Source: Nanohaloarchaea archaeon SW_7_43_1 (lineage in GTDB: Archaea; Nanohalarchaeota; Nanosalinia; Nanosalinales; Nanosalinaceae). From it: DNA of 64,000 bases. Position 1 is the stretch's first letter; each line of letters starts with the position of its first letter. The DNA lies in NCBI GenBank assembly GCA_003009795.1, contig PXPE01000001.1, positions 818,739 to 882,738 of the forward strand, read 5' to 3'. The position numbers were made by a program, and so were the translations under genes. Shown here one piece after another: positions 443 to 37,322 of this stretch. The notes below the pieces were generated by a model. That model saw nothing but the letters and a program-made list of their open reading frames with translations, was not told the DNA's origin and searched no databases.

Positions 443-1702
443 ATGCCAAAGATCAGTGTCGGCCGGGATGATGAAGACAGGGAAGAACACGGCCTGAAAG
501 GAAGCGGGGTGATCGGAAAACATCTTGTCGGTGAAAAACAAGAAGCTCACAAGGCCAACCCGATACACTTCGATCTTGCGAGACCCCATGTTATGGGTGT
601 ATTTGGCAAACGAGGTACTGGCAAGAGCTATTCAATGGGGACTATAGCGGAGGAGATACAGGGCTCAGATATCTCACAGAACCTTTCTACAATAATAATC
701 GATTCTATGGGTATCTACTGGTCAATGGCCCGTCCAAACAACAGAGCTACAACAATGCTGGAAAGCTGGGATATGAAGCCGAAAGGCTTCGATGCCAAGG
801 TCTATATCCCGGAAGGAAAAGTAGATGAGTTTGAAAGCCAGGAAATGCCTTATGACGATACTTTCACGCTTAATCCGGCAGATTTCACTTCGCAGGAATG
901 GGGTATGGCTTTCAACATTGAGATGAACTCGAAGCAGGGTATACTTCTTGAAAGAATGATTTCCAAGTTAAAAGATAATACAGATAACTACTCGATCGAC
1001 GATATAATAGATGCGATCAGAAGCTTTGACTTTCCTAAAGATACCGAGGAAGGGCTTGTCAACCGTTTTATGACAGCACAGGAATGGGGAGTCTTCGGCG
1101 AGGAATCTTCACTTGAGAAATTCACTCAAAGAGAAGAATTATCCATAGTAGATGTATCGGCTTTCGGGGAAATCGCCTCCGGATGGTCGGTCCGATCTCT
1201 AATCGTTGGTTTGCTGGCGAAGAGAATACTTAGAAGGAGGATGACAGCAAGAAGAATTGAGGAAATCGATGAGATGCAAAACATTGCAGAGAACGAGATG
1301 CCTCTCACATGGATGCTTATAGATGAGGCACACGAATTTCTGCCAGCGGAGGGAAAAACTCCGGCTTCAGATCCCCTGCTCAGATGGGTTAAAATCGGTA
1401 GGGAGCCCGGTGTATCATTAGTTCTTGCTACACAGCAACCGGCAAAACTTCACCCAGATGCATTATCACAGTGTGATCTAGTTCTCTCACACCGGTTAAC
1501 TGCAAAACAGGATATTGATGCTCTAGGAGAAATCATGCAGACATACATGAGATACGATCTCAAACATTACATTGACTCACTTCCTGATAGAACCGGTACG
1601 GGACTGATTCTTGACGACAACTCTGAAAGAGTATACCCCATTCAGATGAGACCAAGAAAGTCATGGCACGCAGGTGGAACACCGGATGCATACGACGAAT
1701 AA
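443..1702 (+). CDS. HerA/FtsK-superfamily ATPase (DUF87-type ATP-binding protein)
   Basis: This 419-residue protein has a Walker A motif at residues 55-62 (GKRGTGKS) and a Walker B motif ending in Asp294-Glu295 (LIDEAHEF). A sensor-like stretch, VLATQQPAKL, follows, then the TGTG(L)IL region seen in HerA-like pumps. These features place it in the HerA/VirB4/FtsK group of hexameric ATPases that act on DNA or protein. It lacks the N-terminal HAS-barrel of the true HerA encoded at 20471-22330, so it is a separate paralogue. No nurA, mre11 or rad50 is adjacent. The next gene, a membrane protein, overlaps its 3' end, which suggests a coupled, membrane-associated role. The substrate is unknown. Confidence 0.75.
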   Translation: MPKISVGRDDEDREEHGLKGSGVIGKHLVGEKQEAHKANPIHFDLARPHVMGVFGKRGTGKSYSMGTIAEEIQGSDISQNLSTIIIDSMGIYWSMARPNNRATTMLESWDMKPKGFDAKVYIPEGKVDEFESQEMPYDDTFTLNPADFTSQEWGMAFNIEMNSKQGILLERMISKLKDNTDNYSIDDIIDAIRSFDFPKDTEEGLVNRFMTAQEWGVFGEESSLEKFTQREELSIVDVSAFGEIASGWSVRSLIVGLLAKRILRRRMTARRIEEIDEMQNIAENEMPLTWMLIDEAHEFLPAEGKTPASDPLLRWVKIGREPGVSLVLATQQPAKLHPDALSQCDLVLSHRLTAKQDIDALGEIMQTYMRYDLKHYIDSLPDRTGTGLILDDNSERVYPIQMRPRKSWHAGGTPDAYDE

Positions 1703-34274: not shown

Positions 34275-34736
34275 GTGGGAAGAAGGGATACAAACTTGAT
34301 CTACGATAACGGCGAAAAACTATATATGCAGAAGAGTGGAAAAGGTTTCTCAGGTAATAAAATTGTTGAAATGCTTGAATCACCTGTATCTCTAATTTCA
34401 GGGACAGATCAGCGTTACGAAGCAATTATTGATTATACAGTTCGAGAAGAGCTTGACTCGACTACGCCTAGAACCGAGTTAAAGGTTAATCCTGGAGCAT
34501 TGGATTATTATCTTGAACCAGGACAGACCGCCGAAATGAGAAAAACAATTTCAGGAGAGCTGAGGAAAAACGGCGAGAAGATACCTATCGAAGTCAGAAT
34601 GGAACCTGAACTCTATAGAGAGAATCACGATACAGTACTTGGCTTTAATTACAGCGATCCTAAAGTGAAGGCATTAGCAGAGGACAGTGCAACTTTGACT
34701 CTGAATAACCATCCGTTTATAGAAAGAGCGACTTAG
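34275..34736 (+). CDS. Conserved-looking small protein, unknown function
   Basis: The frame opens at 34239, overlapping the rhomboid stop. A TATA-like TTTTTAAAT at 34249-34257 sits 22-26 bases before GTG 34275, making that the likelier start (a TTG at 34296 is an alternative). The product of about 153 residues is beta-rich, soluble and Glu/Thr-rich, with no motif I recognise. It ends 4 bases into the oppositely oriented endA gene. Confidence 0.4.
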   Translation: MGRRDTNLIYDNGEKLYMQKSGKGFSGNKIVEMLESPVSLISGTDQRYEAIIDYTVREELDSTTPRTELKVNPGALDYYLEPGQTAEMRKTISGELRKNGEKIPIEVRMEPELYRENHDTVLGFNYSDPKVKALAEDSATLTLNNHPFIERAT

Positions 34737-35278
34737 GGAGTAACTCTTTCAACTTCATAGTAGGTTACCTGTCTCTCGGAATCGGCTATCGCCCATAACA
34801 TCTTGGCTCTGATATTGTGAGCCAATCTCACCGCGCGGGACATCTTTTCGTAGCTCTGGTTGTAATCTTCAGGTACAGCGTGTACAATCCACTTTGTATG
34901 TTCTCTTTCTTCCTTCGGTCCTTCCTTGTAGGGATTAACTCCACGAGGATAAACCCTGAAATGAGTGCCGAACTTGAAACCGGTCTTCACTATAAAACCT
35001 CTTTCACGGAGATCAGAGTAAGCCGCATATTTCTGGTCAAACTCATCGTCTTCCTCGCTGAATCTCTGGAAAAGTTCCTCCCTGTCGAGAACTTCATCAT
35101 CCTCAACTATCTCCAGTTCATCACGGTCAACAAGGTGAAGCGCTTCAACAAGTGAAAGCTCCAAGTAACCTTCCTCCTCAATTATCTTTCCATAATAGAA
35201 GTTGCTGTGAACCTCTTCGGCTTCTTCCTCATCCCATACCTTGGCTTTGGTACCGGAAATTTTACCTGTAGCTACCAT
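34733..35278 (-). CDS. endA: tRNA-splicing endonuclease
   Basis: EndA cuts both ends of introns at bulge-helix-bulge RNA motifs. The 181-residue length is that of the single-unit type that forms homotetramers. The catalytic triad is visible as Tyr in HFRVYPRG, His in REHTKWIVH and Lys in IRAKMLWAI. The N-terminal domain (GKISGTKAKVWDEEEA) is also typical. Introns in tRNA-Val and tRNA-iMet in this window are expected substrates. Homotetrameric enzymes are known to prefer strict bulge-helix-bulge structures. Confidence 0.93.
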   Translation of the reverse strand: MVATGKISGTKAKVWDEEEAEEVHSNFYYGKIIEEEGYLELSLVEALHLVDRDELEIVEDDEVLDREELFQRFSEEDDEFDQKYAAYSDLRERGFIVKTGFKFGTHFRVYPRGVNPYKEGPKEEREHTKWIVHAVPEDYNQSYEKMSRAVRLAHNIRAKMLWAIADSERQVTYYEVERVTP

Positions 35279-35310: not shown

Positions 35311-35973
35311 TCAGAAATCTTCTAATCCTTTCTGCCCTGCTTCCTTCAGAATTTTCTCTGCCGTACTCCAGGATTTCCTTGTCTCAATAGGAAACCTGCC
35401 TTTCTCCTCCAAGTATTTCTCCAGAAAACTGATAGTCGGTGAATCATGAGGATAACCTGACTTAAAATCATAACCGTACTTTGAATGGAGTTCCTCAATA
35501 TGTTTCTCCCTAGCCGACTTCGCAATAATCGATGCAGCAGAAACAATCGGATAAGTGTCATCTGCACCATGTTCCGCAACAAAATCTCTTTCTCTGAACC
35601 GGGCTGGCAACTCTCTCTTCATCTTGTTGATGAACCGGTCACCGTCTGGTTCTGGAAGATCAACAAGTATCTTATCCGCATCCGATCGCTCAATAACATC
35701 ACAGAAACCTTGGATCTCAATCTCATTCAGACTCATCACTTCACGAAGCTCATCTATTTCAGAAGCCTCAATTTCTTTCAGGAACGGCTCTCCTATCTCC
35801 TTGAGTTCTTTCGCAAGTCTTTCTCTTTTCTTGTCGCTCAGCTTCTTTGAATCCTTGACACCAAGATCCTTAATCTCATCTAGCTTCTCCTCTTCGACCA
35901 TGAAGCCACCTATAAACATAGAACCTATCACAGGTCCTCTAGCCGCCTCATCAAGCCCTAAAATCTCTCGCAT
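35311..35973 (-). CDS. rnhB: Ribonuclease HII
   Basis: RNase HII cuts RNA in RNA-DNA hybrids and removes single ribonucleotides. The protein starts GLDEAARGPVIGSM, holding the first Asp-Glu of the active site. It continues with GVKDSKKLSDKKRE, VDLPEPDGD (third acidic residue region), HGADDTYPIVSAASIIAKSARE and a C-terminal helical tail. The 220-residue length is normal for the archaeal enzyme. It lies 32 bases upstream of endA on the same strand, forming an RNA-processing pair. Confidence 0.95.
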   Translation of the reverse strand: MREILGLDEAARGPVIGSMFIGGFMVEEEKLDEIKDLGVKDSKKLSDKKRERLAKELKEIGEPFLKEIEASEIDELREVMSLNEIEIQGFCDVIERSDADKILVDLPEPDGDRFINKMKRELPARFRERDFVAEHGADDTYPIVSAASIIAKSAREKHIEELHSKYGYDFKSGYPHDSPTISFLEKYLEEKGRFPIETRKSWSTAEKILKEAGQKGLEDF

Positions 35974-36075: not shown

Positions 36076-36483
36076 ATGAAAAGCAAATCGGTCAGTTCTA
36101 AAGACTCATGTAGAAAAATAACAGATGAATACCTAGTAGGACTTATTGATGGAGAAGGAACGATTAATTTAACAAAGTACCCGGATGGCAGAGAAAGACC
36201 TCAGGTTCTTATCTTCAATACATGCAAGAAAATTCTTGACGAAATTAAAAGACAAAGATCACTTACTGCGCCAGTAATGAAAGTCTCAAGAGTCGGAGAT
36301 AACTTGGATAGAAAGAAAAACTGCTACAGAATTCAAATGCGATCAAGATCAGATATCAGGAAAATGTTCGAGCTAATGAAAGAACATAAACCAATAATTA
36401 AGAAACAAGAATTTGAGGAACTATTTGAAAGCACCAAAAACTGGGTATATCACCAAGATAAGCAGCAAGATAGTATAGATTAG
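36076..36483 (+). CDS. Single-motif LAGLIDADG homing endonuclease, free-standing
   Basis: This 135-residue protein has one LAGLIDADG motif near residues 20-31 (YLVGLIDGEGTI), followed by the typical strand pattern and a helical tail. One-motif enzymes act as homodimers on near-palindromic DNA sites. The gene is not inside an intron or intein. It ends 41 bases before the start of the intron-containing initiator tRNA and points in the same direction. The active-site Asp/Glu of the motif and the rest of the domain look intact. It may act on an intron-free allele of the tRNA gene or on a nearby site; this is inference from position. Confidence 0.85.
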   Translation: MKSKSVSSKDSCRKITDEYLVGLIDGEGTINLTKYPDGRERPQVLIFNTCKKILDEIKRQRSLTAPVMKVSRVGDNLDRKKNCYRIQMRSRSDIRKMFELMKEHKPIIKKQEFEELFESTKNWVYHQDKQQDSID

Positions 36484-36490
36484 TTTAAAA
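36484..36490 (+). promoter_or_regulatory. TATA box for the initiator tRNA gene
   Basis: TTTAAAA lies 38 bases before the tRNA 5' end, predicting transcription from about 36513 and a short 5' leader removed by RNase P. It starts immediately after the endonuclease stop codon. A second AT-rich element (CTTAAATG) is closer to the tRNA. Confidence 0.45.
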
Positions 36491-36547
36491 GAATGAGTCA
36501 ACATCTTAAATGATACAATATCATAGCGGGGTGGAGCAGCCAGGAGA

Positions 36548-36590
36548 AGGTAAGTCTTCTGACTTGCTCGGAATGGCTCACCTCCTAATT
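36548..36590 (+). other. Intron 1 of initiator tRNA (D-loop, about position 21/22)
   Basis: Exon AGGA (36542-36545) pairs with intron TCCT (36583-36586), next to a 3-base bulge GAA and an inner stem (GGT/ACC, then AAGTC-TTCT-GACTT). The D-stem GAGC/GCTC serves as outer helix. The 3' bulge is four bases instead of three, so this is a slightly relaxed bulge-helix-bulge and the 3' cut is less certain. Confidence 0.75.
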
Positions 36591-36598
36591 GCTCGTCG

Positions 36599-36628
36599 AA
36601 ATGTTCCGATTGTCGGCACATTGCGAAC
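36599..36628 (+). other. Intron 2 of initiator tRNA (anticodon stem, position 29/30)
   Basis: This is a strict bulge-helix-bulge. Exon TCGT (36593-36596) pairs with intron GCGA (36623-36626). The 5' bulge is CGA and the 3' bulge ACG, each of three bases. The inner stem is AATGT/ACATT capped by CCGA/TCGG. Cutting after the second base of each bulge gives exactly the exon ends that rebuild the anticodon stem. After intron 1 is removed, the outer helix becomes GAGC/GCTC. Confidence 0.88.
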
Positions 36629-36674
36629 GGCTCATAACCCGGAGGTCGAAGGTTCAAATCCTTCCCCCGCTATT

Positions 36675-37322
36675 TCACTTTCGAGTTATTTCTTGCGCCT
36701 TTAGCACATGCTTATTATTCTTAAACCCTATCTCATCTCTAAATTTAGCTAACTGACCCTTGCCGTTCATTTGTATTCTGATTTTGCCTTTACCAATTCC
36801 GTAAGCTCCAAAATTAAATCCTTGACTCTCTAGGATCTTAGTCAACTGATTCTGCATTGGCGAAGGACATATCTTTGTTTCCAATCTGGGATAGAGCGTT
36901 CCGTTATTGTCGGTGAGAACAACAGATCCATCAGTATCAAAATAACCTCTGAACACATATTTCTCCAGAGAATTGTCCATATATCTTTCTGGTATAGTAG
37001 CTCTTTACCATTTCGGCGATTCCTTAAGCCCTATCTCTTCTGTAACAAATTCAAATATCTCTTTCTTAAAGCATCTTATGTCATATGTATTCTCATTCTT
37101 TCTTTTGGCCCCTTCTACTTCGATACTGAAGAGTTCGGAGAACATCTTTTCAACGTAACCTGCATAATATGGTTCATTGCTTGAGAGTGTGACCTTGACA
37201 CAGTGTTGAATAGATTTGCTACCATCACCGCGATCACACCGATACCTTCCTATTGATCCGTCACCAAGCATGATACCGACAAATTCTGCTAGTTCCTCAG
37301 ATCTTAAATCTGGTTTTTTCAT
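36675..37322 (-). pseudogene. Two-motif LAGLIDADG homing endonuclease interrupted by one stop codon
   Basis: Two consecutive pieces in the same minus-strand frame make one LAGLIDADG endonuclease. The N-terminal half has LAEFVGIMLGDGSIGRY (motif 1). The C-terminal half has YVFRGYFDTDGSVVL (motif 2). They are separated by a single TAA at 37005-37007. The codons after it read R-A-T-I-P-E-R-Y before the next ATG at 36980, a plausible linker. Without the stop the protein would be about 215 residues. ATG 37322 has AT-rich promoter-like sequence about 26 bases upstream. The 3' end of the gene is two bases from the tRNA 3' end. The two halves could still be made separately. Confidence 0.85.

Follow-up and report, generated by a model that had tools for sequence, protein, structure and literature searches.

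A bulge-helix-bulge intron in the anticodon stem of a nanohaloarchaeal initiator tRNA belongs to a patchy, apparently mobile set beside homing-endonuclease genes

RESULTS AND DISCUSSION

The initiator tRNA gene is interrupted at position 29/30

The window, i.e. the whole stretch of 64 000 nucleotides that was analysed, carries an initiator tRNA (iMet) gene in which the 30 nt at 36599-36628, judged from their sequence, are a real bulge-helix-bulge (BHB) intron at position 29/30, ordinary in mechanism (a BHB cut by the splicing endonuclease EndA). What is new and of interest is that it belongs to a patchily distributed and apparently mobile set of introns beside homing-endonuclease genes. The intron-bearing tRNA was matched at 36525-36672 (Rfam, 31.1 bits) and is the sole iMet of the complete genome of 956,550 bp, since searches with its 5' part and with its anticodon arm each led to one place. 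The features of the locus are the following.

34733..35278, minus strand: endA, tRNA splicing endonuclease, 181 aa, single copy (PF01974 4.7e-25, PF02778 2.3e-16)
35311..35973, minus strand: a gene that we take, from its sequence, to be rnhB, coding for RNase HII; next to iMet in conserved synteny, with a tree in conflict with the endA tree
36076..36483, plus strand: single-motif LAGLIDADG-like ORF, 135 aa, LVGLIDGEG; 41 nt 5' of iMet, with rnhB on one side and the promoter of the tRNA on the other
36484..36493, plus strand: TATA-like TTAAAAGAAT 5' of iMet, read directly and similar in most relatives
36525..36546, plus strand: exon 1 of tRNA-iMet, positions 1-20a, same as the 5' part of the iMet of intronless relatives
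36547..36589, plus strand: 43-nt intron 1 at 20a/21 in the D-loop; boundary moved by one base, GGAGTGCYC restored, BHB with 3 of 4 central pairs
36590..36598, plus strand: exon 2 of tRNA-iMet, TGCTCGTCG, positions 21-29, from comparison with other iMets
36593..36596, plus strand: central BHB helix, 5' strand UCGU
36599..36628, plus strand: intron 2, 30 nt, site 29/30; mature sequence restored, BHB, homologues in genomes G018, G016 and G008
36623..36626, plus strand: central BHB helix, 3' strand GCGA, invariant across four genomes
36629..36672, plus strand: exon 3 of tRNA-iMet, positions 30-73, up to the end of the Rfam match
36675..37322, minus strand: two-motif LAGLIDADG gene (PF14528), tail-to-tail with iMet, like a gene of G008; TAA in frame at 37005-37007

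Joining 36598 to 36629 brings GTCG next to GGCTCATAACCCGG, the same as in the iMet of intronless relatives. Nearly all of the 22 intronless Nanohaloarchaeota iMets read ...CCAGGAGTGCYCGTCGGGCTCATAACCCGGAGG..., and the iMet of the window, freed of 36599-36628 and of 36547-36589, reads exactly ...CCAGGAGTGCYCGTCGGGCTCATAACCCGGAGG... as well. Due to this exact match, the boundaries of intron 2 and its site are those given in the preliminary description. The motif described there also stands: bulges of 3 nt (CG-A and AC-G, cut after the second base) flank the 4-bp helix UCGU/GCGA, which consists of three Watson-Crick pairs and one U-G, and splicing rebuilds the anticodon stem UCGGG/CCCGG with its three G-C pairs. 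The intron itself contains a 5-bp internal helix, AAUGU/ACAUU, and the outer helix is GC/GC, 2 bp followed by U.U. When the letters of the intron were shuffled with the cuts fixed, all four central pairs arose in 2.9% of shuffles, and four central pairs together with an intron helix of at least 5 pairs in 0.015% (joint chance 1.5e-4).

ViennaRNA locally favoured a shifted pairing, UCG(27-29)/CGA, over the BHB by 0.9 kcal/mol in the window and by 1.5-1.7 kcal/mol in the 29/30 introns of relatives. Because the canonical 37/38 introns of these relatives lie even further from the minimum (4-6.5 kcal/mol) than the 29/30 intron, this preference does not by itself argue against the 29/30 motif; the BHB of intron 2, with its outer helix of only 2 bp, is compatible with the sequence, though it is other than the predicted energy minimum.

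The intron is patchily distributed across Nanohaloarchaeota

The sample comprised 28 genomes of the phylum (G000 being that of the window), counts of tRNA genes referring to those listed, and an iMet was obtained from 27 of them. The 29/30 intron was found in four, G000, G018, G016 and G008, always with the same central helix; the intron helices differ in sequence, including A-U in the window where the others have G-C. The preliminary description had called an intron at this site rare, which holds in part only, given that 4 of the 27 iMets carry it. G018, G016 and G008 have a second iMet intron, at 37/38, with the strict central helix CUCA/UGAG. This intron is absent from the window, where it was either lost or never present, and the window has the D-loop intron 36547-36589, beside the endonuclease-like ORF upstream. 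Another iMet intron lies at about 53/54, in the T-arm, in G019, so that initiator introns occur at four sites within the phylum. In the two species of the genus to which the window belongs, the iMet T-stem (window 36650-36665) reads GAAGG/CCTTC, a compensated replacement of the CGTGG/CCACG seen in most of the family.

The 37/38 introns of G018 and G008, which belong to different genera, are identical at 36 of 39 positions (92%, three differences), compared with protein identities of 61% for EndA and 76% for RnhB, and the intron of G016, closer by tree, differs more than this pair does. In the EndA tree G008 stands with G009-G011 and its grouping with genera g1/g11 is rejected (AU p=0.032), while in the RnhB tree it stands near g1/g11 (84% identical to G017) and the G009-G011 grouping is rejected (p=0.041); both AU tests give modest p-values, for comparisons that were picked after the first trees had been seen. 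The tree conflict and the 92% identity of the 37/38 introns suggest that the rnhB-iMet-endonuclease stretch moved between lineages. Taken together, a patchy occurrence of the intron combined with movement from lineage to lineage, as expected of a mobile intron, has moderate support.

Endonuclease genes at the iMet locus

The gene at 36675..37322 is 59% identical over 212 aa to its intact counterpart in the corresponding position of G008, in which the two LAGLIDADG motifs read FVGIMLGDG and LRGLFDTDG; PF14528 matched the G008 gene at 1.4e-5 and half of the window gene at 7.6e-5. The frame is broken by one TAA in the window and intact in G008 (212 aa) and G016. This endonuclease, family A, occurs in 3 of the 28 genomes (window, G008, G016), in all of them tail-to-tail behind an iMet with the 29/30 intron; it is absent beside the other 24 iMets, and nothing of comparable similarity was found elsewhere in the phylum. 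Among these 24 iMets the 29/30 intron is present in G018 alone (exact count 4/2925 = 0.0014). The downstream flank of G018 is that of the window, 92% identical, minus the endonuclease gene, of which no significant remnant was found there.

A second endonuclease, family B, occupies the same slot behind intronless iMets in G009 (intact, 184 aa) and G017 (broken). Pooling the two families weakens the link to the 29/30 intron (2 x 2 table 3, 2 / 1, 21; 225/17550 = 0.013), and due to the relatedness of the genomes both exact tests overstate independence, with one or two independent pairs on the tree. Searches for relatives of the downstream endonuclease gave none in viral contigs and, in GTDB contigs, the Nanohaloarchaeota record LKMV01000027.1 only. 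In the upstream ORF 36076-36483, the translation contains LVGLIDGEG and the Pfam match is weak (E=0.086); among the 27 other genomes it has no close relative and two weak matches (E=0.006-0.009). The AlphaFold models of both endonucleases, made from single-sequence input, were of poor quality, that of the upstream ORF being of low confidence.

Endonuclease genes beside other tRNA genes

In the phylum, LAGLIDADG_3 was scanned for and the surroundings of the free-standing matches were read. This gave 19 free-standing PF14528 genes, of which 12 adjoin a tRNA gene, compared with about 1% for random placement (the binomial was computed on 12/20). Besides iMet, the pairs, roughly 100 bp or less apart, are the following.

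G011: endonuclease beside tRNA-Gln-CTG, which has a D-loop intron
G010: endonuclease, gene broken, beside tRNA-Gln-TTG, which has a D-loop intron
G008: endonuclease beside tRNA-Leu, which has a D-loop intron
G008: endonuclease beside tRNA-Asp, which has a 37/38 intron
G017 and G003: endonuclease behind tRNA-Asp, intronless
G019: endonuclease beside tRNA-Val-GAC, which has an intron near 45/46
G000: broken LAGLIDADG gene directly upstream of tRNA-Cys, intronless

In total, introns are present in 8 of 13 endonuclease-adjacent tRNA genes. That every such tRNA has an intron was considered and rejected, 5 of the 13 being without one: the iMets of G009 and G017, the Asp genes of G017 and G003, and the Cys gene of G000. 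Conversely, non-canonical introns without an adjoining endonuclease are found in iMet and both Gln genes of G018, in Gln-TTG of G000 and in Gln-CTG of G007, the Gln introns in these three genomes being D-loop introns. From these sequences the association of endonucleases is strong for tRNA genes and suggestive for introns.

The tRNA-Cys of G000 and its broken endonuclease lie at G000:C1 about 814100-814940 (L105 5188-5939, 5124-5197), and in G019 the 3' end of the 322-aa LAGLIDADG gene overlaps tRNA-Val(GAC) (L158 1482-2509). The tRNA-Gln(TTG) of G000 (L021 about 1322-1480, minus strand) has apparent D-loop and 37/38 introns, and no endonuclease was found adjoining it. G000 has about 20 LAGLIDADG_3 matches, one of them in the window (G000:C1:823344-823526); most lie within long frames and are probably inteins. 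In G015 (L156), a match of 38 bits, short of the gathering threshold, points to something like a group I intron in the 16S rRNA gene, with a LAGLIDADG ORF within it.

Proposed spread of the introns and alternative explanations

Starting from what is observed (the introns, their homology, their neighbourhood and the tree conflict), we lean somewhat towards a mobile set of BHB introns at iMet that spread with a neighbouring LAGLIDADG endonuclease, which later decayed. The starting point was probably an iMet with an intron pair at 29/30 and 37/38 and with a LAGLIDADG gene ending a few bases behind the tRNA. The endonuclease would cleave an intronless iMet locus, and repair would copy from the donor not only the iMet and its introns but also the endonuclease gene and part of the flank, leading to intron-bearing iMet genes that should escape further cutting. 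The endonuclease would then decay, as the single stop in the window and the missing gene in G018 suggest, while the introns would persist because EndA removes them: as the structure and the restored sequence indicate, EndA would cut both bulges of 36599-36628 and ligation of the exons would give a normal iMet. Thus the endonuclease neighbours, as these patterns suggest, may spread tRNA introns between species.

More tentatively, and at rather less than even confidence, the whole set could be read as collaborative homing, in which free-standing LAGLIDADG enzymes at the side of tRNA genes would cut intronless alleles at the intron site and in this way spread, along with their own genes, small BHB introns that lack an ORF. 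As parts of the same tentative reading, the endonuclease gene would follow the tRNA where the intron is in the anticodon arm or the variable arm (iMet, Asp, Val) and would precede it where the intron is in the D-loop (Gln, Leu and perhaps intron 1 of iMet).

Endonucleases also lie beside intronless tRNAs, and hence they may home to a target in the tRNA flank that needs no intron, with the introns hitch-hiking. On this explanation the target would be at the 3' end or flank of the tRNA and would be destroyed by the endonuclease gene itself, the introns moving by co-conversion only. Family B, placed in the same slot behind intronless iMets, and the endonucleases behind the intronless tRNA-Asp of G017 and G003 speak for it; the constant adjacency of introns to family A (3/3) and to the Gln/Leu family (3/3, D-loop introns) is left unexplained by it, and we hold it to be unlikely, although a serious competitor.

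Still less probable, in our estimate, is vertical inheritance, by which ancestral 29/30 and 37/38 introns were mostly lost and the endonuclease beside iMet would parasitize a conserved locus independently of them. In its favour, archaea may plausibly lose tRNA introns, and endonucleases also adjoin intronless tRNAs. However, inheritance by descent would have to accommodate the 92% identity of the G018 and G008 introns against the much lower identity of their EndA and RnhB, the more different intron of the more closely related G016, the conflict of the rnhB and endA trees, and the fact that family A never adjoins an intronless iMet.

Relation to known systems

According to reviews (PMC3218864, PMC8450103), non-canonical introns are almost confined to Crenarchaeota and Thaumarchaeota. 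The tRNA-Ala of Caldivirga is known to be split at 29/30 (PMC4090602). The BHB introns of Thermoproteales, other Crenarchaeota and Thaumarchaeota (PMC8450103, PMC4090602, PMC3218864) are, like those described here, small hairpins outside 37/38, at least two per tRNA, in which EndA cuts a pair of 3-nt bulges that flank a 4-bp helix; unlike them, the present introns occur in Nanohaloarchaeota and interrupt the initiator, in a setting with a single short EndA gene and endonuclease neighbours. In Nanoarchaeum equitans the iMet is split at 37/38 and in Thermofilum pendens it is permuted (PMC3218864); there, as here, a broken initiator is restored by BHB cuts, whereas here the interruptions are cis introns at 20a/21 and 29/30.

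Among the BHB introns in the 16S rRNA of Pyrobaculum oguniense (Pog.S1213/Pog.S1205), one is spread by its own LAGLIDADG enzyme, and a short hairpin intron 8 nt away is co-converted with it (PMC4496867). The same distance of eight nucleotides separates the 29/30 site from the 37/38 site; the Pyrobaculum enzyme is encoded within the intron, whereas the present endonuclease genes are external to the tRNA gene. Collaborative homing by free-standing phage endonucleases (Zeng et al. 2009), as far as the description in PMC3984707 goes, likewise combines a free-standing endonuclease gene with an ORF-less intron whose insertion site is maybe targeted; it concerns a self-splicing group I intron in phage genes, whereas here BHB introns in tRNA genes are concerned and cleavage would be an assumption of the model. 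The known homing system at an initiator tRNA has the same target gene, the enzyme there being encoded within a group I intron.

In the literature covered, which excludes subscription journals, no report of endonucleases beside archaeal tRNA introns was found. For the gain and movement of ORF-less tRNA introns, transposition of intron sequence and integrating elements have been proposed (PMC4033280, PMC3293823). Endonuclease genes beside intron-bearing tRNAs would offer a concrete and testable agent for the gain and movement of small introns in archaea, with the initiator tRNA as an essential single-copy target.

The splicing endonuclease

Removal of intron 2 is almost certainly carried out by the single EndA of the genome, which has one PF01974 match and in which no second EndA subunit was found. 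The enzyme follows the alpha-type pattern, a single 181-aa gene with one N domain and one catalytic C domain. In an alignment to solved structures, whose chains we take to be the enzymes named here, its N-domain loop exceeds those of M. jannaschii and A. fulgidus by only 2-3 residues, and a C-domain insertion, NPYKEGPKEE, resembles that in the enzymes of Nanoarchaeum and ARMAN-2. With a loop lengthened by so little, compared with the 11-18 residues and conserved lysine that define CSL/ASL loops in the N domain, the EndA of the window appears on this alignment to be without a broad-specificity loop. ASL/CSL loops have been linked to broad EndA specificity (PMC12397907), and alpha4/alpha2 EndA has been tied to canonical introns (PMC4090602). 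Non-canonical and multiple introns together with a sole EndA that apparently has no CSL/ASL loop would call the broad-specificity rule into question. In G015, EndA is encoded twice, by almost identical genes separated by 4 kb (G015:C1 5089-5370 and 9528-9809), a duplication that may be an assembly artefact (contamination 7%).

Intron 1 and the order of splicing

For intron 1 the preliminary description had given the join 36547/36591, which is off by one base. GGAGTGCYC, present in all 26 other iMets, arises in the window only with the join 36546/36590, and thus intron 1 is 36547-36589. The first-stated join gives GGAGAGCTC and a BHB site with one of four central pairs; with the corrected boundary the bulges are AG-A and AT-T, three of four central pairs form beside a C.A mismatch, and the intron helix and outer helix have 4 and 3 bp. 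A strict BHB for intron 1 at 36547/36589 was also tried; it has four of four central pairs and was rejected for two extra D-loop bases seen in no relative.

The outer helix GAGC/GCTC, said to form for intron 2 once intron 1 is removed, is an artefact of the shifted boundary because its A36547 is an intron base, and with it falls the splicing order that was predicted: the outer helix GC/GC is there before and after removal of intron 1. Moreover, the claimed dependence on intron 1 does not hold in G018, G008 and G016, which have the 29/30 intron and lack intron 1. The two BHBs overlap at 36591-36593, so they probably form successively, the order not being given by the sequence. An obligatory order, with intron 1 out before the 29/30 BHB can form, would find a basis in these shared exon bases and in close introns of which one must go first, as reported by the authors of tRNAscan-SE 2.0 (PMC8450103); deprived of the off-by-one boundary on which it depended, and set against three relatives that have the 29/30 intron alone of the two, it is very improbable. 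That the inserts stay unspliced and the gene is a pseudogene, as the failure of ARAGORN without introns to find it might hint, is extremely improbable: the genome, 98.95% complete, has no other iMet, the exons are intact and the promoter-like TTAAAAG is kept.

Intron 1 (window 36564-36580) contains TGCTCG and GGCTCA, both also present in the mature iMet, and has TGCTCGGARTGGC in common with the D-loop intron of tRNA-Gln in G011; a common origin with that intron, or derivation from a tRNA, is possible.
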